DNA of 64,000 bases, taken from assembly GCF_002806995.1 (NCBI RefSeq), contig NZ_NIHE01000002.1:186001-250000 (forward strand), read 5' to 3'. This DNA comes from Confluentibacter lentus. GTDB taxonomy: Bacteria; Bacteroidota; Bacteroidia; Flavobacteriales; Flavobacteriaceae. Below, one piece after another: positions 38,781 to 55,264 of the stretch. The number at the start of each line of letters is the position of its first letter. The first letter of the stretch is position 1. The notes beneath the pieces were generated by a model. The model worked only from the letters and a program-made list of their open reading frames with translations, was not told where the DNA came from and did no database searches. Position numbers and translations under genes: made by a program.

Positions 38781-41700
38781 CTAAAAATTCAATCCAAAAC
38801 CAAACGAAAACCGGAGGCCTTCTGCGCCTTGAAACACATTAAAAGTACCGGATAGCGTCTGTGCTGCCGTTACCCAAAAACCGCCACCATAATCGTTGTG
38901 CCATCTTTTTGAAGTATCGTTTTCCAACCAAACCCTACCAATATCTACACCACCAAAAACACCAAACTGCAAAGGCAAAACGCTAGTTTTGAAAGATGGG
39001 AAACTGTAACGTAAGTCGGCACTACCAGTTAGCGCATTTTTACCTGTAAAACGTTCGGTTCTATACCCTCTCAACCCATTATTACCGCCAATATTGGCTG
39101 CTTGGTAAAAGATGAGATTGTCACCAAACCTAAGCTGACCTCTCACATCTGTTTTAAGAACTAACTTTTTGTTTGTGGTCAACGCGTTATAAAAATCCAA
39201 TTCGGAATTCACAAAACCATAGGTGTTTTTGGTTTCCTTAAACTCTGTTTTTCCACCGACATTTAAAAGGAATGTCATCCCACGAGCCGGATTTATGGCA
39301 TTATCAAAACTTTTATAATGGTATTGTGCTTGAAGTCCACCAAAAAAACGTCTTGTATAAAAATCATTGTTGACAAGAGGCATAAAACTGGAAATATAAC
39401 GATCTGGAGTATCTTCAATCTCAATCCCTTCAAAAAGGGCTTTAAAACCATAATCACTTCCGTAACTTCCTTTTTTAATCATGCCTAAATTCAGTGCATA
39501 AATACCTGTTTTCACTCGGTTATAATCCAATCCGAAATTATCATCATCATTAGCGGTTTCATTTCCAAAGCCAAAGAAATTATTGGTAAAGTTTTCGGAT
39601 GTAAATCGTCCAGAAACTTGCAAATTCCAATCTTGATGGATGTTGGCAAACTCACCTTCATAATTAAGTTCATAACCATTCGTAGCAAAAAAATACCCAC
39701 CTTTAAAATGGTGTTGTTGGGAAAACGGATTCCGTTGAAAGCCTTTTACGGTATGCACATAAGAAGCACCTAATTTAAAACCATCATCGGGGTTAAATCC
39801 GAAACTGGGCGTGATGGTGCCTGTTTTGGTGATGTTTTTTTGAAAATCAAAGAGATTTAAATTATAAACATCGGTGAATTTTATGCTGGCGCCTTGATTT
39901 TTTTCGATGGTATTTTTTTTGGATTTATGGTCATAAACCTTAATGCGTTTACCATTTTCAATGATATAAGTATCTTCTCCTTGCCCACCAATAAGGCGCG
40001 TATAAATCATATTATTTGCTTCACCTTCAACCTTAAAAACATCCTTATCATCCAAGCCATACAACCAAATTTCTTTAGTAATCTCTCTATTAAAAGTCTT
40101 ATCAACTAACACATCGGCTTTTTCACCCGATTTAATACGTGATATTTTTATATGTGTTTCTTTATTGCTTGTTCTAGTAATTTCAATGTAATCATCTTTA
40201 TCTGTTCCCATTAAAATGACCAGTTCATTCAAATGTTTGTAATATCTGGTGGCAATATCCAAAAGATTACTTCGTCTTGCTTTTAGATTTGCTTTAATGG
40301 CATTCAAGGTTTCGTCCTGAACTTCTTTTGGGACTTTTGAAAATGCCTCAACAATCACAGCATCAGTGATATGTTCTTGTAAAAACAGTGCTTGTTTTAA
40401 CCAATCAGATTCATCGGCTTTTTGGATTAATATTCTATCTAATTTAATCCCGGCACTATTCATCCAGTTGATATCCTTTAATTCTGAATCATAGACTTGC
40501 AACTGTTTTGTTGAACCAGATATAATTTTCATGACATCCAATAAAGCACCATCAAAATTTGAAAACGCTTGATCTCTATCTCGCGGTATGGGTCTAAATA
40601 TGTTATCGCCATTCTCCGTTTCAAACTCAGCCCATTTCCACTGGTCTTGATGCCTATCCCAATCGCCCACCAACATATCAAAAAGACGCGCTTTTATAAA
40701 AGCCTGTTCATCTATTTTATATTTCTCATCCTCCTGAACTTTTTTAATGACATCGTAGGTGTTTTTAATATCCTTTGGCGTTTCCAGATTTTGGTCATTA
40801 AACGAAATATCTTCCGGACGTTCTTCAACCATATACAATTCGTCACCGAATTCATCATTATAATTCTCCAAGGCTTTGTGCTTGGGAATGTAAAATAATT
40901 TCGGATTGGTATGCATTATTTTGGCAGCACTTGACAAATCTGGAATTACTGTAAATGCATAAGGATGAGCAGCGGTATAAAAATCGAGAACCAGATTTTC
41001 AACAGCGGTCTTCTCAAATTCATCTACAATATAAGTATCTTTAAACAACACCGTTTGAAGATATTGGGTGGCGCTTTTACGCAGTGCCCTCATGCTTAAT
41101 TCTTTACCATCTTTGGTCTTTAATCGCAAAGAACGTGTTTGGTGGCCTCCTCCTTTTCTAATAACTTCCAAGCCACCATACAATGTATCTAAAGTCGTGA
41201 CTTTAACCTTTATGTTTGTACTATAAACGTCTCTATAATGTCCACCCCAAACCGTTTCAAAAAAACCTGTTTTATCGGTTTCTTCTTTGGCATAAATAGA
41301 TGTTTCAATGTCTTGGGAAAAGCTTTCAGGGAGTTTGGAATAATCAAAAACCTGATTAATTTTTTGCACTTCTTTCTGAAATACCAACTTGGCTTGTCCG
41401 TTTTCCGAAGCAAACATGTTAACCCAGCTGCTTCCGTCTTTGTAAATGACTAACTCAGCAAAACCTTGTTTGCCATAAGAAAACAAGCCATTTTCCCTCA
41501 ATGACACAGCCGATTCTTTAGAACCTGAACCCGATACAATTTGCTTAATCGATTTATTCTCCACGTATTGTAAAGCATGCTCATGTCCAGAAACAAAAAC
41601 AAGATTGTTTTCACCTAATGCCATAGTTTCCAAACGGCTCATCAATTCATGGTAACGCTCATTGTAAAGATCTTGAGGCGAAACACCTCCTTGAGTTCTT

Positions 41701-42488
41701 ATTTGCGTAATTAAAGAGCCTATAATTGGTAATGGAATTTTTTGTTGAAACGGAAATATATGCTTGCTTGCCGCCACATGACCGCCGTGGGAACCATTCG
41801 TGTACATGGGATGGTGCATAGCAAAGACCACGGTTTTATTCTGGGCTTTTTTTATTTCTCCTTCTATTTCTTCAAAAAAACGTTCCCTAGTTTTTATCTC
41901 ACAATCGTCATTAATAGTTGGTGAATGATCCCAATTTTCTAAATACCATTGGGTATCGATGATGATTAATTGGATGGTGTTGCTAATATCAATACTTTCC
42001 AAAGGACAACCATTTTCTGGCAAAAAGGTATTCTTTCCTAAAGCTTCTTCAATATACTGCTCTTCCCGTTTTAAGCCTTTTAATCCGTTAGAATACCAAT
42101 CATGGTTTCCAGGAATAAAAACCGTTTTCCCTTTGAAATCCTTTACTGATTTTATTTGGGCATTTAAACTATTTTCAGCATTTGCCCTGCTATTTTTCCC
42201 AACATCTGGCATACCTGAGGGATAAATATTATCGCCTAAAAAAATGACATAATCGTCTTCTGTATTTTTATTTGAAATATGATTTTGGAATGCTTGTAAG
42301 CCATCGGAGAATCCGATGTCAGGCGACAGACCCGCATCACCTATTAAATAAAATATTTTATCAACTTCTTTGTTTGGGGATTTATTGCCAATTAAGTCTT
42401 CATGGGCATATTGTACTTTGTAGGTTGCACAAGCATCAACAAGCAATAAAACTAAAAAAAGAGGGATTAATCTAAACGGCAACTTCAT
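38781..42488 (-). CDS. Three-part lipoprotein: metallophosphoesterase, kinase-like middle, Omp85-type barrel
   Basis: A 1235-residue protein. The signal ends in LVDAC, lipidated at Cys20. The calcineurin-like phosphoesterase (45-305) is complete: IGDAG (49-53), FLGDNIYP (83-90), GNHD (127-130), HHP (225-227) and GHEH (301-304). The middle (about 410-760) has a Gly loop GGGHQTRSLRL (446-456), an RALRK strand (468-471), VGDWDRHQDQWKW (607-619) and PRDRDQAF (635-642), which resemble the nucleotide loop, DRH and metal motifs of CotH/Fam20-like atypical kinases (my inference). From about 870 to the end is a 16-strand Omp85-like barrel with the NGLRGYRTERF lid motif and final FGFGLNF. The first helix of the signal and the barrel place the phosphatase at the outer membrane. 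Confidence 0.85.
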   Translation of the reverse strand: MKLPFRLIPLFLVLLLVDACATYKVQYAHEDLIGNKSPNKEVDKIFYLIGDAGLSPDIGFSDGLQAFQNHISNKNTEDDYVIFLGDNIYPSGMPDVGKNSRANAENSLNAQIKSVKDFKGKTVFIPGNHDWYSNGLKGLKREEQYIEEALGKNTFLPENGCPLESIDISNTIQLIIIDTQWYLENWDHSPTINDDCEIKTRERFFEEIEGEIKKAQNKTVVFAMHHPMYTNGSHGGHVAASKHIFPFQQKIPLPIIGSLITQIRTQGGVSPQDLYNERYHELMSRLETMALGENNLVFVSGHEHALQYVENKSIKQIVSGSGSKESAVSLRENGLFSYGKQGFAELVIYKDGSSWVNMFASENGQAKLVFQKEVQKINQVFDYSKLPESFSQDIETSIYAKEETDKTGFFETVWGGHYRDVYSTNIKVKVTTLDTLYGGLEVIRKGGGHQTRSLRLKTKDGKELSMRALRKSATQYLQTVLFKDTYIVDEFEKTAVENLVLDFYTAAHPYAFTVIPDLSSAAKIMHTNPKLFYIPKHKALENYNDEFGDELYMVEERPEDISFNDQNLETPKDIKNTYDVIKKVQEDEKYKIDEQAFIKARLFDMLVGDWDRHQDQWKWAEFETENGDNIFRPIPRDRDQAFSNFDGALLDVMKIISGSTKQLQVYDSELKDINWMNSAGIKLDRILIQKADESDWLKQALFLQEHITDAVIVEAFSKVPKEVQDETLNAIKANLKARRSNLLDIATRYYKHLNELVILMGTDKDDYIEITRTSNKETHIKISRIKSGEKADVLVDKTFNREITKEIWLYGLDDKDVFKVEGEANNMIYTRLIGGQGEDTYIIENGKRIKVYDHKSKKNTIEKNQGASIKFTDVYNLNLFDFQKNITKTGTITPSFGFNPDDGFKLGASYVHTVKGFQRNPFSQQHHFKGGYFFATNGYELNYEGEFANIHQDWNLQVSGRFTSENFTNNFFGFGNETANDDDNFGLDYNRVKTGIYALNLGMIKKGSYGSDYGFKALFEGIEIEDTPDRYISSFMPLVNNDFYTRRFFGGLQAQYHYKSFDNAINPARGMTFLLNVGGKTEFKETKNTYGFVNSELDFYNALTTNKKLVLKTDVRGQLRFGDNLIFYQAANIGGNNGLRGYRTERFTGKNALTGSADLRYSFPSFKTSVLPLQFGVFGGVDIGRVWLENDTSKRWHNDYGGGFWVTAAQTLSGTFNVFQGAEGLRFSFGFGLNF

Positions 42489-42578
42489 GTCATGATGCTT
42501 CTATTCTAACATAAATATACAAATTAGCAAATCATCTTTTTTAATAAATTTTTCAGTAATTTGTATTATTATATACAA

Positions 42579-43766
42579 ATGCAAAATATGCCAGATATTT
42601 TAAAAATAACGCAGGAATTCGTTTTTAATTTATTTAAAGAAAAACTTCCAAGTACATTTTTATACCATAATTATAACCATACCGAATGTGTTTGTAATGG
42701 CGTGGACGAAATTATTGAAAATACCAATCTTAACGGTGAAGATCGCTTGGCATTAAAATTAGCAGCGCTATTACATGACACAGGATATACGAAAACCATT
42801 CAAGGGCATGAAGATGAAAGCGTAAAAATAGCGACTGATTTTTTAAAGGGACAGGGTGTTGATGACATAATTATACACAATGTGAACCTTTGTATTTTGG
42901 CAACAAAACTTGATAATAAACCAAATACATTATTAGAAAAAATAATGAGGGATGCGGATACATTCCATTTTGGAAAGGACAATTTTAATGATGTTAGCGA
43001 ATTTTTAAGAAAAGAGCTTGAGATATTGGGCATAAAAAACTACTCAACAAATGAATGGTTGGATGAAAATATACAATTGCTTTCTGAAAAACATCAATTT
43101 TATACGGATTATGCTATAAAAAACTGGCAGCCAAAAAAAGAAATAAACCTAAATAAGCTTATAAAGAAAAAAGAAAAGTTAGCACTAAAGTCAAAAACTG
43201 AAGACCTAAAAAACAAACTGAAAAACGAAAATCCAGACCGTGGTGTTCAAACATTTTTTAGGGTAGCTTTAAAAAACCACATAAAACTTAGTGATATTGC
43301 CGATACTAAAGCCAATATTTTATTATCGGTTAATGCCATCATCATTTCTCTTGTTCTTTCTAACTTGCTTTCAAAATTAGACAGCCCTTCTAATAGTTAT
43401 TTAATAATTCCAACGCTTATTTTTACTGTATCAAGTGTTATATCTATGGTCTTGTCCATTATTGCCACAAGGCCGAACATTACTAGCGGATCATTTACCA
43501 AAGAAGATGTGGAGCAAAAACGGGTTAATTTAACCTTTTTTGGAAATTTCCATAAAATGGAATTAAAAGAATACCAGTGGGCCATTTCAGAGCTTATAAA
43601 AGACAAAGCGTATCTATATGATTCTATGACCAAGGACTTATATTTTTTAGGAAAAGTTTTAGATAGAAAATATAGAATCCTAAGAATTACCTACAACATA
43701 TTTATGACAGGCATGATTATATCTGTTATTGCCTTTGTTGTCGCTTTTAAAATGAGTAAAGGTTAG
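42579..43766 (+). CDS. HD-domain phosphohydrolase fused to a PycTM (Pycsar effector) membrane domain
   Basis: A 395-residue protein from ATG 42579 (an in-frame TTG at 42561 is less likely). The HD domain (1-190) keeps its metal residues: YNH (His34), LLHDTG (His66-Asp67), GHE (His77) and MRDADTF (Asp125). After a Lys/Glu-rich coiled linker (195-235) comes the PycTM-type domain: LSDIADTKANILLSVNAI, two more hydrophobic segments (about 280-303 and 365-387) and the region YQWAISELIKDKAYLYDSMT. PycTM is the membrane effector of Pycsar cyclic-nucleotide immunity. Here it is joined to a possible nucleotide hydrolase and no cyclase gene is next to it. It converges on the GAF gene. Confidence 0.83.
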   Translation: MQNMPDILKITQEFVFNLFKEKLPSTFLYHNYNHTECVCNGVDEIIENTNLNGEDRLALKLAALLHDTGYTKTIQGHEDESVKIATDFLKGQGVDDIIIHNVNLCILATKLDNKPNTLLEKIMRDADTFHFGKDNFNDVSEFLRKELEILGIKNYSTNEWLDENIQLLSEKHQFYTDYAIKNWQPKKEINLNKLIKKKEKLALKSKTEDLKNKLKNENPDRGVQTFFRVALKNHIKLSDIADTKANILLSVNAIIISLVLSNLLSKLDSPSNSYLIIPTLIFTVSSVISMVLSIIATRPNITSGSFTKEDVEQKRVNLTFFGNFHKMELKEYQWAISELIKDKAYLYDSMTKDLYFLGKVLDRKYRILRITYNIFMTGMIISVIAFVVAFKMSKG

Positions 43767-43811: not shown

Positions 43812-46181
43812 TTAAGCTTTAATTTCGTTCATTAAATCATTGTATGTGAAGAAGTCCTTACTATTTTTTCCTTTGTCTTTATAAAGCAAACTTACCCTAA
43901 TAGCCTTTAAGCCAGTAACACCTTGAAGGTTTTCCAACTCTACAATTTCTTCATCTGTATCAAGCATTTTTTTGGATTGCAAAAACTTGATATAACGTAA
44001 ATATTCAATTTCGTCTTCTTTATGTGAGTAAACAATAGCAATTTTACCTTTACCTGTTATACGTTCTTCTGTTCCTTTAATAAAGGCTTTATCAACTCTT
44101 TTTTTAACGACCTCATATCTGGCATTGTAAGTGCCATCCACATCAAATTTTTTCTCATCCATTCTAAATCGTATGGATAGGGGTTGATTAAAAACCAAAA
44201 TCATGGAAACAATATCTAGACTTAATGGGTAGCTATCTTGGTTGCTATAATAGGCATTCTCCATTTCACACATTACCTGAAGTTGCCATAACCTAAGGTT
44301 GTATAGATATATGATGTTAAAACTATCCTCCTTTGTAATAGTTTCTCCTATATACATATTATGTTCTACGCCATCGGTTTTAAAACGTTCAAAAAAATGT
44401 GGGTACATTTTTTGTGCTTCTACTTGCTTTTCATCCAACAGCCTAGCCATATTTTTATTGATTAACGCTACGGTGTCATCATAATTTTTACGGTAATGGT
44501 ATACAAGTCCCAGATTTTCATCTAGTTTACTAAAATAGTCGTTAATAGCTTCCGTAAATGAGCCATCTTGTTTTAAAAGAAACTTGAACAACGGCTCTAT
44601 TTCATTTTTAAAGAACCCAGAAAGCACCAATTCACTATCCACTTTAAAATTAGATTTCAATTCTTCCTTAAAGTTTTCAATTTGAAATCGAATTTGACTG
44701 TAAATAGGCAGCTCTTTTTCTTTTTCTATTTTTTCAAGTATTTTTTCCGTCAAACTCAGCTGCAAGGTTAAATCTCTTTGGGTAGCTTTATTTCTGGCAT
44801 CAGACGATCCTTTAATATCCATTTGACCAAATAAAGGATATACATTTTCGAATACTATTTTGCTGAAGGTTGCACTACCCGCTTGTTTTTGTCTATCAAA
44901 TAAAAATTTTTTTGCGGCTTTTTTAAATTTCCACGATACGCTAGGATGTATTGAAGTACATTCTCGTTGAATGACAGCCTCTATCAAATTATGTTCTTCC
45001 TTTTTAGATCGCTCTACCGTAGATACTATAAATGGCATGATATCTACCAGTTTATTAGCATTAATACTATTTAAAGCTTTGGGTGTGGCAGATACAAGTT
45101 CTAAAATACCCAACAATTCACCATTACTGGAAATGGGCGCTAAAATGGCACTTTTAATACCTTGATCTTTTAAAATTTTAAATTGAGGACTACAATAAAG
45201 TTCTTCAAACTTTTCAACATCGGATATGGAATAGAATTTTTTTTCATTAAGAAGCATATCATACGACTCATGGCATAAAGATGATTCGCAAAGTAAGCCC
45301 TCATTTTTATTGACAAGAAAACTGACCATACCCTCTCCCACAACGCGCTCGAAGCTATCTTCTTCTTTGTTATAAACCGAAAACCCAACTCTTAAATCTT
45401 TTAAACCCAATAGCGATTGAAAAACATTTTGAAACTCTTTGATAAAATTTTCATCTTTTTGTTTTACCTCACCAATTAAACTCGATTTTATGTTTGAAAT
45501 AGATTGATCATCCGTTACATCAAAAATATTGGATATAACAAACCCTTTGAAAATGTAACTATTGGGTGGGAACTTCTTTTTCCATAGTTCTATATTTCCA
45601 AAATTATCTAATAATTCTTCATAATCTTGGTGCGTAATTTTTATAGCCTTGTCTGTTGGCACGATTTCACAAAAATCGGCGTTGTACAATATTTTATAAT
45701 ATCGCTTAATACCATCGGCATCTGGTATCTCGTAAAACATGGGGCGTTTTAAACTTAAATTGTAACCATAGCATAAATTTAAGATGACCGTACAAGCAAT
45801 AATGTAAGTGTCATCCTCCGGCATATTTTTAATTTTAAGCTCAAAATCCTTTCCAGCTGTCTTAATAATATTTTTAAACCTTTCGGAAGCATTGAATATA
45901 ATATTTTGAAAAGGAACCGAAGCCGTTTTAATTTCGTTTCGTGTTAGGAGGGGGCTAAATGAATCTTGTAATATGGTTTCTATTTGTTCTTTATATGCTT
46001 CCAACAATGAAAAATCGGTAAAACCATCCCTTAGTACAGGGTGCTTTTCTTGAAACTCTAAAATATGTTTTGCTTTTGCAATCATAAAATCGTCACTACT
46101 ATCTAACATTGTTTCATACTGCTCTAATAATTTTTTAAAGCTTATTTGCAAGAGCATTGGTGATTCAACAGGTTGATACAT
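43812..46181 (-). CDS. Large GAF-domain protein of unknown function
   Basis: A 789-residue cytosolic protein with no signal peptide. A GAF-like domain lies in the middle (about 255-400: LKDLRVGFSVYNKEEDSFER, KSAILAPISSNGELLGILEL). Flanking regions are helical and have no motif I know (SWKFKKAAKKFLFDRQKQAG, LYNLRLWQLQVMCEMENAYY). It carries no kinase, cyclase or GGDEF motif. It may be a small-molecule or redox sensor. It faces the HD-PycTM gene tail to tail with 45 bases between, an adjacency that may be conserved in relatives. Confidence 0.7.
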   Translation of the reverse strand: MYQPVESPMLLQISFKKLLEQYETMLDSSDDFMIAKAKHILEFQEKHPVLRDGFTDFSLLEAYKEQIETILQDSFSPLLTRNEIKTASVPFQNIIFNASERFKNIIKTAGKDFELKIKNMPEDDTYIIACTVILNLCYGYNLSLKRPMFYEIPDADGIKRYYKILYNADFCEIVPTDKAIKITHQDYEELLDNFGNIELWKKKFPPNSYIFKGFVISNIFDVTDDQSISNIKSSLIGEVKQKDENFIKEFQNVFQSLLGLKDLRVGFSVYNKEEDSFERVVGEGMVSFLVNKNEGLLCESSLCHESYDMLLNEKKFYSISDVEKFEELYCSPQFKILKDQGIKSAILAPISSNGELLGILELVSATPKALNSINANKLVDIMPFIVSTVERSKKEEHNLIEAVIQRECTSIHPSVSWKFKKAAKKFLFDRQKQAGSATFSKIVFENVYPLFGQMDIKGSSDARNKATQRDLTLQLSLTEKILEKIEKEKELPIYSQIRFQIENFKEELKSNFKVDSELVLSGFFKNEIEPLFKFLLKQDGSFTEAINDYFSKLDENLGLVYHYRKNYDDTVALINKNMARLLDEKQVEAQKMYPHFFERFKTDGVEHNMYIGETITKEDSFNIIYLYNLRLWQLQVMCEMENAYYSNQDSYPLSLDIVSMILVFNQPLSIRFRMDEKKFDVDGTYNARYEVVKKRVDKAFIKGTEERITGKGKIAIVYSHKEDEIEYLRYIKFLQSKKMLDTDEEIVELENLQGVTGLKAIRVSLLYKDKGKNSKDFFTYNDLMNEIKA

Positions 46182-52852: not shown

Positions 52853-55264
52853 TTATTTAATAATGACGTCTTCAGTAATTTGCAAATTTGCTGTTTTAGA
52901 TTTAACGGCGTTATCTTTATTTTTAAAAGTTTCAACATTGGCTTTCACTTCAGCTTCTGTTCCTGTAAAGTTTTCATAACTGGTAGACGTTTCGCCATTT
53001 TTAGTAATAACTGTTGTTACCACGGCTTTATAAGTCCCATCTTCATTTTCCATCATATCCACTTTAATTTCCTTAGAAACCATTTCTGTTTCTATGTCAT
53101 TATTAGAAACATAAGCAGTCATAACCTCATCTGAAGGCAATGCAATACTTGGTGCTATTACTAAGGCTACAACCGACATTAATTTTAATAAGATATTTAA
53201 TGAAGGTCCTGAAGTATCTTTAAATGGATCTCCAACAGTATCGCCTACCACAGCTGCTTTATGTGCATCGGTACCTTTACGTCCGTCAGCCTCAATCATT
53301 TTTTTAGCGTTATCCCAAGCACCCCCAGCATTTGATTGAAAAATAGCCATTAGTACTCCAGAAGCAGTAACACCTGCTAATAAACCTCCTAGCATTTCTG
53401 CACGACCAATAAATCCAACTGCAACAGGAACAGCAATTGCCAATAATCCCGGCAATACCATTTCTCTAATAGATGCTTTGGTTGAAATGGCAACACATTT
53501 TTCATATTCAGCATAACCATCAGCAGCATCAAAAATAGCTCTATCTTCAGGAGTTGCTTTACTCATATCAGAATCATATTTACGCATAACAGCTAAAGCC
53601 GCTTTTAACTGTGGAATATCCCTAAATTGGCGACGAACTTCTTCAATCATGGCCATAGCAGCTCTACCTACAGCATTCATAGATAACGCAGAGAACACAA
53701 AAGGCAACATACTACCAACTAACAACCCGGCCATAACGGTAGGTTTAGACACATCAATAGAAGTCACATTTGCCACTTGCATAAACGCAGCAAACAAAGC
53801 CAAAGCTGTTAATGCGGCAGATGCAATAGCAAAACCTTTACCAATGGCAGCAGTTGTGTTACCAACGGCATCCAATTTATCGGTACGCTCACGAACTTCA
53901 TGAGGCAATTCAGCCATTTCAGCAATCCCACCCGCATTGTCAGAAATTGGACCATATGCATCAACCGCTAATTGAATGCCTGTATTAGCTAACATCCCAA
54001 CGGCAGCAATTGCAATACCATAAAGTCCTGCAAAATGATAAGACACCAAAATAGCCGCAGCAATAAATAATATTGGAAACATGGTGGACATCATACCAAC
54101 GCCTAAACCGGCAATAATATTTGTGGCCGCCCCCGTTTCAGATTGCTTTACAATACTGCTAACTGGTTTCGTTCCTGTTCCTGTGTAATATTCGGTTATT
54201 TTACCAACAGCCAACCCTGCGATTAGCCCTGCAAGGGTCGCTAAAAAAACACCTAATGATGTATATTCAACACCATTATAAACCCATGTTTCAGGAATTA
54301 ATGCATCAATAATAAAATAGGAAGCTATAACCATTAATCCTGCAGAACCAAACTCACCAATATTTAAGGCTGTTTGCGGATTCCCACCATCTTTAACTTT
54401 AACGAAAAATGTCCCAATAATAGACATAACGATACCAATAGCCGATAATACCAGTGGCAAATAAACGGCACCTAGACCAGCAAAATCTGGTGTTATTATA
54501 AAAGCCCCTAATACCATCGTTCCTATAATAGAACCAACATACGATTCAAATAAATCGGCTCCCATACCAGCAACATCACCCACGTTATCGCCCACATTAT
54601 CTGCAATAGTAGCAGGATTTAAAGGGTGGTCTTCTGGAATTCCAGCTTCAACTTTTCCAACTAAATCAGCTCCAACATCGGCTGCTTTCGTATAAATACC
54701 ACCACCAACACGTGCAAATAATGCAATAGATGATGCACCTAAAGAAAATCCAGAAAGTACATTTAAAACCAAACTTAAATTATCTGCTCCAGGCCATATT
54801 ACTTGATAAATAGCAAATAATCCACTTAAGCCTAAAACACCTAAACCAACAACACCTAATCCCATAACGGCACCTCCAGCAAAAGCGACTTCAAGAGCTT
54901 TCCCTAATGAGGTTCTAGCGGCTTGCGTGGTTCTCACGTTGGCCTTGGTTGCCACTTTCATACCAATAAAACCTGCCAGTGCCGAGCAAATGGCACCAAC
55001 TATAAATGATACTGCAACCATACCGTTTGAACCATCTTCATTGCTTCCTTTAAAAAACAACAAAATAGCTACAGCAACTACAAAAACTGCTAAAATTTTA
55101 TACTCTGCTTTAAGAAAGGACATCGCGCCATCGGCTATACTTTTGGCAATCCTAATCATTCTTTCATTACCTTGTTCTTGCTTGGTTACCCATGCGCTTT
55201 TCACAAAAACAAACAAAAGTCCTAAAACACCAAAAAGCGGTAAAAAGTTCACTATTAATTCCAT
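52853..55264 (-). CDS. hppA: Ion-pumping membrane pyrophosphatase (K+-dependent type), with C-terminal tail
   Basis: An 803-residue polytopic enzyme. The core (1 to about 710) carries the pyrophosphate-site motifs [42 protein letters not shown] and [16 protein letters not shown]. The motif [13 protein letters not shown] has Ala where K+-independent enzymes have Lys, so it should be K+-dependent; Na+ or H+ export is likely. The last 90 residues (from [10 protein letters not shown]) form a hydrophilic strand-rich tail outside the core, which I cannot assign. It converges on the PAP2 gene and follows the soluble pyrophosphatase gene on the same strand. Confidence 0.93.

Follow-up and report, generated by a model that had tools for sequence, protein, structure and literature searches.

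Enzymes carried on an outer-membrane barrel of the Omp85 superfamily are known from PlpD and other patatin-Omp85 proteins (type Vd). In a further group the barrel is fused to PF00149, which is a phosphoesterase family. Such fusions were listed by Heinz and Lithgow in 2014 as the 'Metallo' subfamily, with the domain called a metalloprotease (PMC4104836). Here we describe a gene of Confluentibacter lentus, located in a window of 64,000 nucleotides (the whole stretch that was analysed, contig NZ_NIHE01000002.1, positions 186,001 to 250,000), that encodes a lipoprotein with PF00149 and an Omp85 barrel and, between them, a domain predicted to have the fold of a protein kinase. The 'Metallo' proteins are most likely the same proteins as this family, but the kinase-fold domain, a kinase-barrel form without the phosphatase and the gene neighborhood do not appear in that account (PMC4104836). 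The original prediction had presented the protein as a possible new kind of machine. This was partly anticipated by the 2014 catalog of the phosphoesterase-Omp85 fusion; for the kinase-like domain, no published description was found in a literature search with subscription papers and preprints outside its scope. Compared with PlpD, the window protein has different enzymes (Pfam finds no patatin domain in it), no visible POTRA, a lipid anchor and two catalytic domains. We regard it as a variant among the Omp85 proteins that bear enzymes, one that contains a new kinase-fold family.

The genome carries a single copy of the gene, and the minus-strand open reading frame of 1235 codons with Cys20 is as originally predicted. 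Full-length orthologs (38-92% identity) are found throughout Flavobacteriaceae, the nearest in Confluentibacter, which indicates that the gene is real and old. Pfam recognizes only the phosphoesterase domain in the 1235-aa protein. Residues 36-1235 were modeled with AlphaFold (predicted local distance difference test score, pLDDT, 85.7; predicted template modeling score, pTM, 0.81). The parts of the gene, in window coordinates, are as follows.

38781..42488, minus strand: the whole gene for the metallophosphoesterase-kinase-fold-Omp85 lipoprotein (open reading frame, 1235 aa, full-length orthologs).
42429..42488, minus strand: residues 1-20, a signal peptide with its lipobox (VDAC, Cys20), the cysteine being unchanged in 34/34 homologs.
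41373..42383, minus strand: metallophosphoesterase resembling tartrate-resistant acid phosphatase (TRAP) and purple acid phosphatases, residues ~36-372 (PF00149, GAP50 fold, TRAP hits, ligand table).
40203..41336, minus strand: predicted kinase-fold domain, residues 385-762 as modeled, core ~395-755 (AlphaFold2 model, Foldseek, conservation).
39876..40223, minus strand: beta-rich module at the position of a POTRA, residues ~756-871 (DSSP of the full-length model).
38784..39827, minus strand: predicted 16-strand Omp85 beta-barrel, residues ~888-1235, with the lid motif LRGY (R1140) (model, BamA/TamA fold).

The models support assigning the middle domain to the HipA/CtkA/PI4K/Fam20 type of protein-kinase fold. 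When residues 385-762 were modeled alone (AlphaFold2, 47 sequences in the input, pLDDT 82.9, pTM 0.84), the best Foldseek matches in the PDB were all kinases, with probability near 1: CtkA (7.1e-6), HipA, COQ8A, a Ser/Thr kinase, PI4KIIalpha, and Fam20. The TM-scores of these matches, 0.3-0.5, are modest, which is what a distant relative would give. The original prediction had assigned a nucleotide loop, a lysine strand, a DRH catalytic motif, and a metal aspartate to GGGHQTRSLRL (446-456), RALRK (467-471), VGDWDRHQDQWKW (607-619), and PRDRDQAF (635-642); the motifs lie at exactly these positions, occupy the correct topological places and are nearly invariant. By DSSP of the full model, there is a strand (440-446), the glycine-rich loop (446-450), and a second strand (451-458), followed by strand 463-471, which ends in K471, a helix, and strand 550-556 at the position of the hinge. 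Helix 594-607 leads into the catalytic loop (D609-W617, with D609, D611, and R612), and after strands 617-623 and 629-635 D637/D639 follow immediately.

Conservation falls on the same residues. K471, D609, D611, R612, D615, W617, and D639 are unchanged in 34/34 homologs, and across 67 sequences that include kinase-only and kinase-barrel forms and distant families, K471, D611, and D639 are retained at 99% (66/67). Of the 378 positions ranked for conservation in this diverse set, K471, D609, D611, R612, and D639 take places between 4 and 14, which argues that the motifs are not chance resemblances. Two checks that bear on the original prediction, structure prediction with Foldseek and the presence of these residues in homologs, gave a kinase-like and not an unrelated fold, and residues that are kept. 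There is one clear exception, the kinase-barrel relative L119/L197 (genome G238), which has lost the kinase motifs (GDWNETTENW, MDRSHAF) and is a probable pseudokinase; no HD-PycTM gene, the usual neighbor described below, was detected in its genome. Separately, PADLOC reports a weak match (1e-4) to the candidate defense family PDC-M03A at residues 563-746, over the C-lobe, which we do not interpret. Other weak Pfam matches (DUF2718, PAN2_N, EnY2, and more) are scattered and near chance.

For the N-terminal domain the PF00149 match spans residues 47-241 (2.9e-11, above the Pfam cut-off). All five calcineurin-phosphoesterase motifs of the original prediction are there (GDAG, GDNIY, GNHD, HHP, GHEH), although the GDxG first motif and GDxxY refine the kind to purple acid phosphatase/TRAP. 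The metal ligands D51, D86, N128, H226, H302, and H304 make up the full DDNHHH set. Consistent with this assignment, Foldseek matches the domain to the purple-acid-phosphatase-like GAP50 (3tgh, 3.6e-10), and the best PDB sequence match, a weak one, is TRAP. The motif pattern and fold are thus shared with tartrate-resistant/purple acid phosphatases (ACP5) and GAP50, but unlike these the window domain is bacterial, lipidated, and fused, and several of its paralogs have lost ligands.

The C-terminal Omp85 barrel with LRGY, also predicted originally, is borne out. The full-length model ends in 16 long strands that Foldseek matches to BamA (4k3c, 1.9e-11) and TamA (9.3e-10), and the superfamily's L6 lid motif, (V/L)RG(F/Y), is present as LRGY with R1140 unchanged in 34/34 homologs. 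The NCBIfam Omp85_fam match is weak (1.1e-15, under its cut-off). The predicted order of phosphoesterase, middle domain, and barrel stands, except that an extra module (~756-871) separates the kinase-like domain from the barrel. It comprises ~115 residues in ~11 short strands with the turns GTDKDD, GLDDKD, and GGQGED, and D816, G834, G835, and D839 are unchanged in the 34 homologs. Pfam (E up to 10) finds no POTRA in the window protein. Since Omp85 members without POTRA are recognized ('noNterm', PMC4104836), this does not bar membership in the superfamily.

In some species there are two or three tandem copies of the main gene, and these paralogs separate the two active sites. In at least three separate groups, namely one clade of copies, Myroides, and second copies of Winogradskyella, phosphatase ligands have been lost (for example NNNHAK in place of DDNHHH) with the kinase triad intact, while another, fully supported clade retains the phosphatase and has the kinase site DRE..H with N637 (variants H613E, Q616H, and D637N). 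The sequences indicate that selection acts separately on the two active sites and that it keeps the kinase-type site more strictly, which argues against a decorative pseudokinase. At four loci (L044, L046, L049, L060) the main gene and the next gene downstream are a decayed-phosphatase/DRH copy and an intact-phosphatase/DRE/N637 copy side by side, and the last three of these loci also hold part of a third tandem copy.

Relatives were found in 174/296 Bacteroidota genomes surveyed, a count that includes weak matches to barrel-only proteins. Beside the full fusion there are kinase-barrel proteins (~860-900 aa), phosphatase-only proteins, and kinase-only proteins. At L211 and L212, from two genomes of a single family, the kinase, phosphatase, and barrel are encoded in this order by three consecutive co-directional genes, and this arrangement argues that the three domains form one unit. 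Export signals of the split forms were judged by eye on the N-termini: the stand-alone kinase-domain protein of L211 carries a lipobox (LAGC) of its own, signal peptides are present on the kinase-barrel proteins, and several phosphatase-only proteins are lipoproteins. From the L211 lipobox and the kinase-barrel signal peptides, the kinase-fold domain is predicted to be an exported protein by itself.

The gene neighborhood is conserved as well. Three elements beside the main gene recur in what follows.

42489..42578: intergenic region of 90 bp shared by two divergent genes.
42579..43766 (including the stop codon), plus strand: HD-PycTM gene, the divergent partner, 395 aa from ATG (Pfam HD 5e-8, PycTM 2.7e-37).
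43812..46181, minus strand: 789-aa GAF-type protein, a recurrent third neighbor present at 52/81 loci (homolog L196, GAF_2 2.9e-6).

The HD-PycTM gene is a neighbor of the main gene at 62/81 loci. Linkage counts are from genomes in which both genes appear among the matches listed; on this basis the two genes are <10 kb apart in 76/93 genomes and <20 kb apart in 81/93, against a chance expectation of ~1% for one gene pair in a 4-Mb genome. Linkage within 20 kb extends to 19/22 families, with varying orientation, and HD-PycTM is also near kinase-barrel forms without the phosphatase (L198-L200). The polyphosphate kinase gene PPK1 is found no more than 20 kb from the main gene in 24/54 genomes listed, from eight families. 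At two loci from two families (L186, L218) HD-PycTM, PPK1, an SdiA-regulated/phytase-like propeller, the phosphatase-kinase-barrel gene, and the GAF protein gene follow one another as a five-gene run on one strand. The GAF-type gene is adjacent or near at these loci and at L194 and L196; Pfam has no match for the 789-aa window protein itself. Further neighbors at other loci are a histidine phosphatase resembling SixA or a nucleotide cyclase of class III.

Some neighbors are noted as observations in their own right. A class III nucleotide cyclase with tetratricopeptide repeats adjoins the main gene at L189, L190, L200, and L201, and at L190 a PycTM protein follows the cyclase in a layout that recalls Pycsar cyclase-effector pairs. 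A membrane H+-pyrophosphatase is encoded at 52853-55264 of the window, ~10 kb from the main gene. SelO is a kinase-fold enzyme that transfers AMP; a SelO adenylyltransferase gene (L007:4369-5928) is directly upstream of the main gene at one locus, and the SelO family recurs at 25 loci. A true CotH kinase gene (L199:3502-4629) lies ~1 kb from a kinase-barrel gene.

On balance we favor the view that the lipoprotein is an envelope phosphatase/phosphotransferase tied to phosphate or polyphosphate metabolism. It would be an exported, lipidated outer-membrane enzyme that combines a TRAP-like phosphatase with a phosphotransferase whose kinase fold is of the HipA/CtkA/PI4K/CotH class, with the POTRA-less 16-strand barrel holding both domains at the periplasmic face. 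Phosphate would most likely be added to and removed from a common envelope substrate, whether lipid, glycan, or protein. Its partners in phosphate and polyphosphate management would be HD-PycTM, PPK1, and the SixA-like phosphatase in the cytoplasm or inner membrane and the exported SdiA-regulated/phytase-like propeller.

Several results weigh against this view. Pfam detects no kinase family in the window protein (E up to 10) or in the 34 homologs (E up to 1), and a HipA_C profile match that places D611 on the HipA catalytic aspartate scores 22.9 against 22.2 for the best shuffle; because its score is at shuffle level, the HipA_C comparison was not used as evidence. PPK1 lies at <10 kb in nine genomes, with the rest (10-19 kb) mostly from one family (f23), and many families show no PPK1 linkage. 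The genome from which the window comes has PPK1 on a different contig, not near the main gene, and the link therefore belongs to the family rather than to this locus. Finally, ATP is not expected in the periplasm, and a kinase there therefore needs another donor or another location. A polyphosphate donor would resolve this and fits the linkage to PPK1: in this rather improbable scheme the kinase-fold domain would draw on an exported phosphate donor, polyphosphate or another, supplied through the linked PPK1 system, and mark an envelope substrate, and the TRAP-like phosphatase would reverse the mark. The PPK1 linkage is observed, while the donor, polyphosphate export, and the substrate are speculation.

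The middle domain is placed among kinases here on the strength of its fold and topology, not of profile matches. CotH (PF08757) has no match in the window protein (E up to 10) or in the 34 homologs (E up to 1), HipA (PF07804) has no Pfam match in either, and a PDB sequence search with the kinase-domain profile gave no match. When its profile was compared with that of 25 CotH domains from Bacteroidota, the score was 33.5 versus <=21.4 for 20 column shuffles, with GDWDRH...PRDRDQAF in register with the CotH catalytic loop and metal-aspartate region (DRH/DRD), although CotH is absent among the 50 Foldseek matches listed for the domain. As is predicted for the window domain, CotH acts beyond the ordinary cytoplasm, in its case in the spore coat (PMC12189002). 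With HipA, CtkA, PI4KIIalpha, and Fam20 kinases the domain has in common the fold, a DRH-type catalytic loop, the strand pair, the metal aspartate, and the glycine-rich loop; it differs in its catalytic loop (DRHxDQW versus DxHxKN), in having no HipA_C or kinase-family profile match, and in being exported and fused to a phosphatase and a barrel. Since no family profile matches, CotH is in register and HipA is at shuffle level, we place the domain as a separate family of the HipA/CtkA/PI4K/CotH/Fam20 supergroup.

Two alternatives concern the nature of this domain. That its likeness to kinases is coincidental and the fold unrelated is extremely improbable: Pfam, NCBIfam, and PDB sequence searches give no match for the middle domain, as such a fold would suggest, but the confident model, top Foldseek matches to kinases only, and correct topology and register nearly refute it. 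It is unlikely, if well worth considering, that the domain is no classical kinase and instead transfers AMP or another group, or senses a nucleotide or inositol-type ligand and so gates the phosphatase or barrel. The kinase fold is versatile, as its CotH, SelO, and HipA relatives demonstrate, and the paralog variants H613E, Q616H, and D637N suggest altered chemistry, but K471/D611/D639 are invariant as for phosphotransfer, and nothing in the analysis points to another chemistry.

The remaining alternatives concern what the barrel is for and which way the enzymes face. Omp85 N-terminal domains are periplasmic, and Bacteroidota send lipoproteins to the surface by means of an acidic signal after the cysteine. 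Bacteroidota display many surface lipoproteins, and a lipoprotein on an Omp85 pore could in principle be a type Vd-like surface effector whose enzyme domains cross the outer membrane or are exposed on its outer side. No acidic signal follows Cys20 in the window protein (ATYKVQY) or its homologs, however, the cargo would be a folded protein of ~85 kDa, and the enzyme domain of PlpD, the nearest analog that has been studied, remains in the periplasm (PMC11116518). We thus regard surface display as very doubtful, and by analogy with the periplasmic N-termini of Omp85 proteins and of PlpD, and given the missing signal, the enzyme domains likelier face the periplasm than the surface. These points, together with a context of phosphate metabolism, speak against the surface signaling or effector machine that the original prediction had proposed. 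It also seems quite unlikely that the protein is mainly an assembly or translocation factor in which the phosphatase and kinase-like domains regulate insertion of outer-membrane proteins. This would account for a true Omp85 barrel with an invariant LRGY arginine, and an envelope quality-control role has been discussed for the 'Metallo' group (PMC4104836), but Pfam finds no POTRA domain, the barrel can be encoded apart from the enzymes, and the neighbors are phosphate-related rather than Bam or Tam genes. A candidate relative from Riemerella, OMP76, was set aside as a siderophore receptor.

The domain make-up and the HD-PycTM and PPK1 neighbors suggest a machine of the cell envelope that handles phosphate. 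Phosphorylation beyond the bacterial cytoplasm is poorly understood, since the periplasm is without ATP. The family described here spans much of Bacteroidota, is held at the outer membrane, and is genetically tied to a PycTM protein and often to a polyphosphate kinase. It makes testable the long-standing question of how, if at all, bacteria phosphorylate their envelopes.

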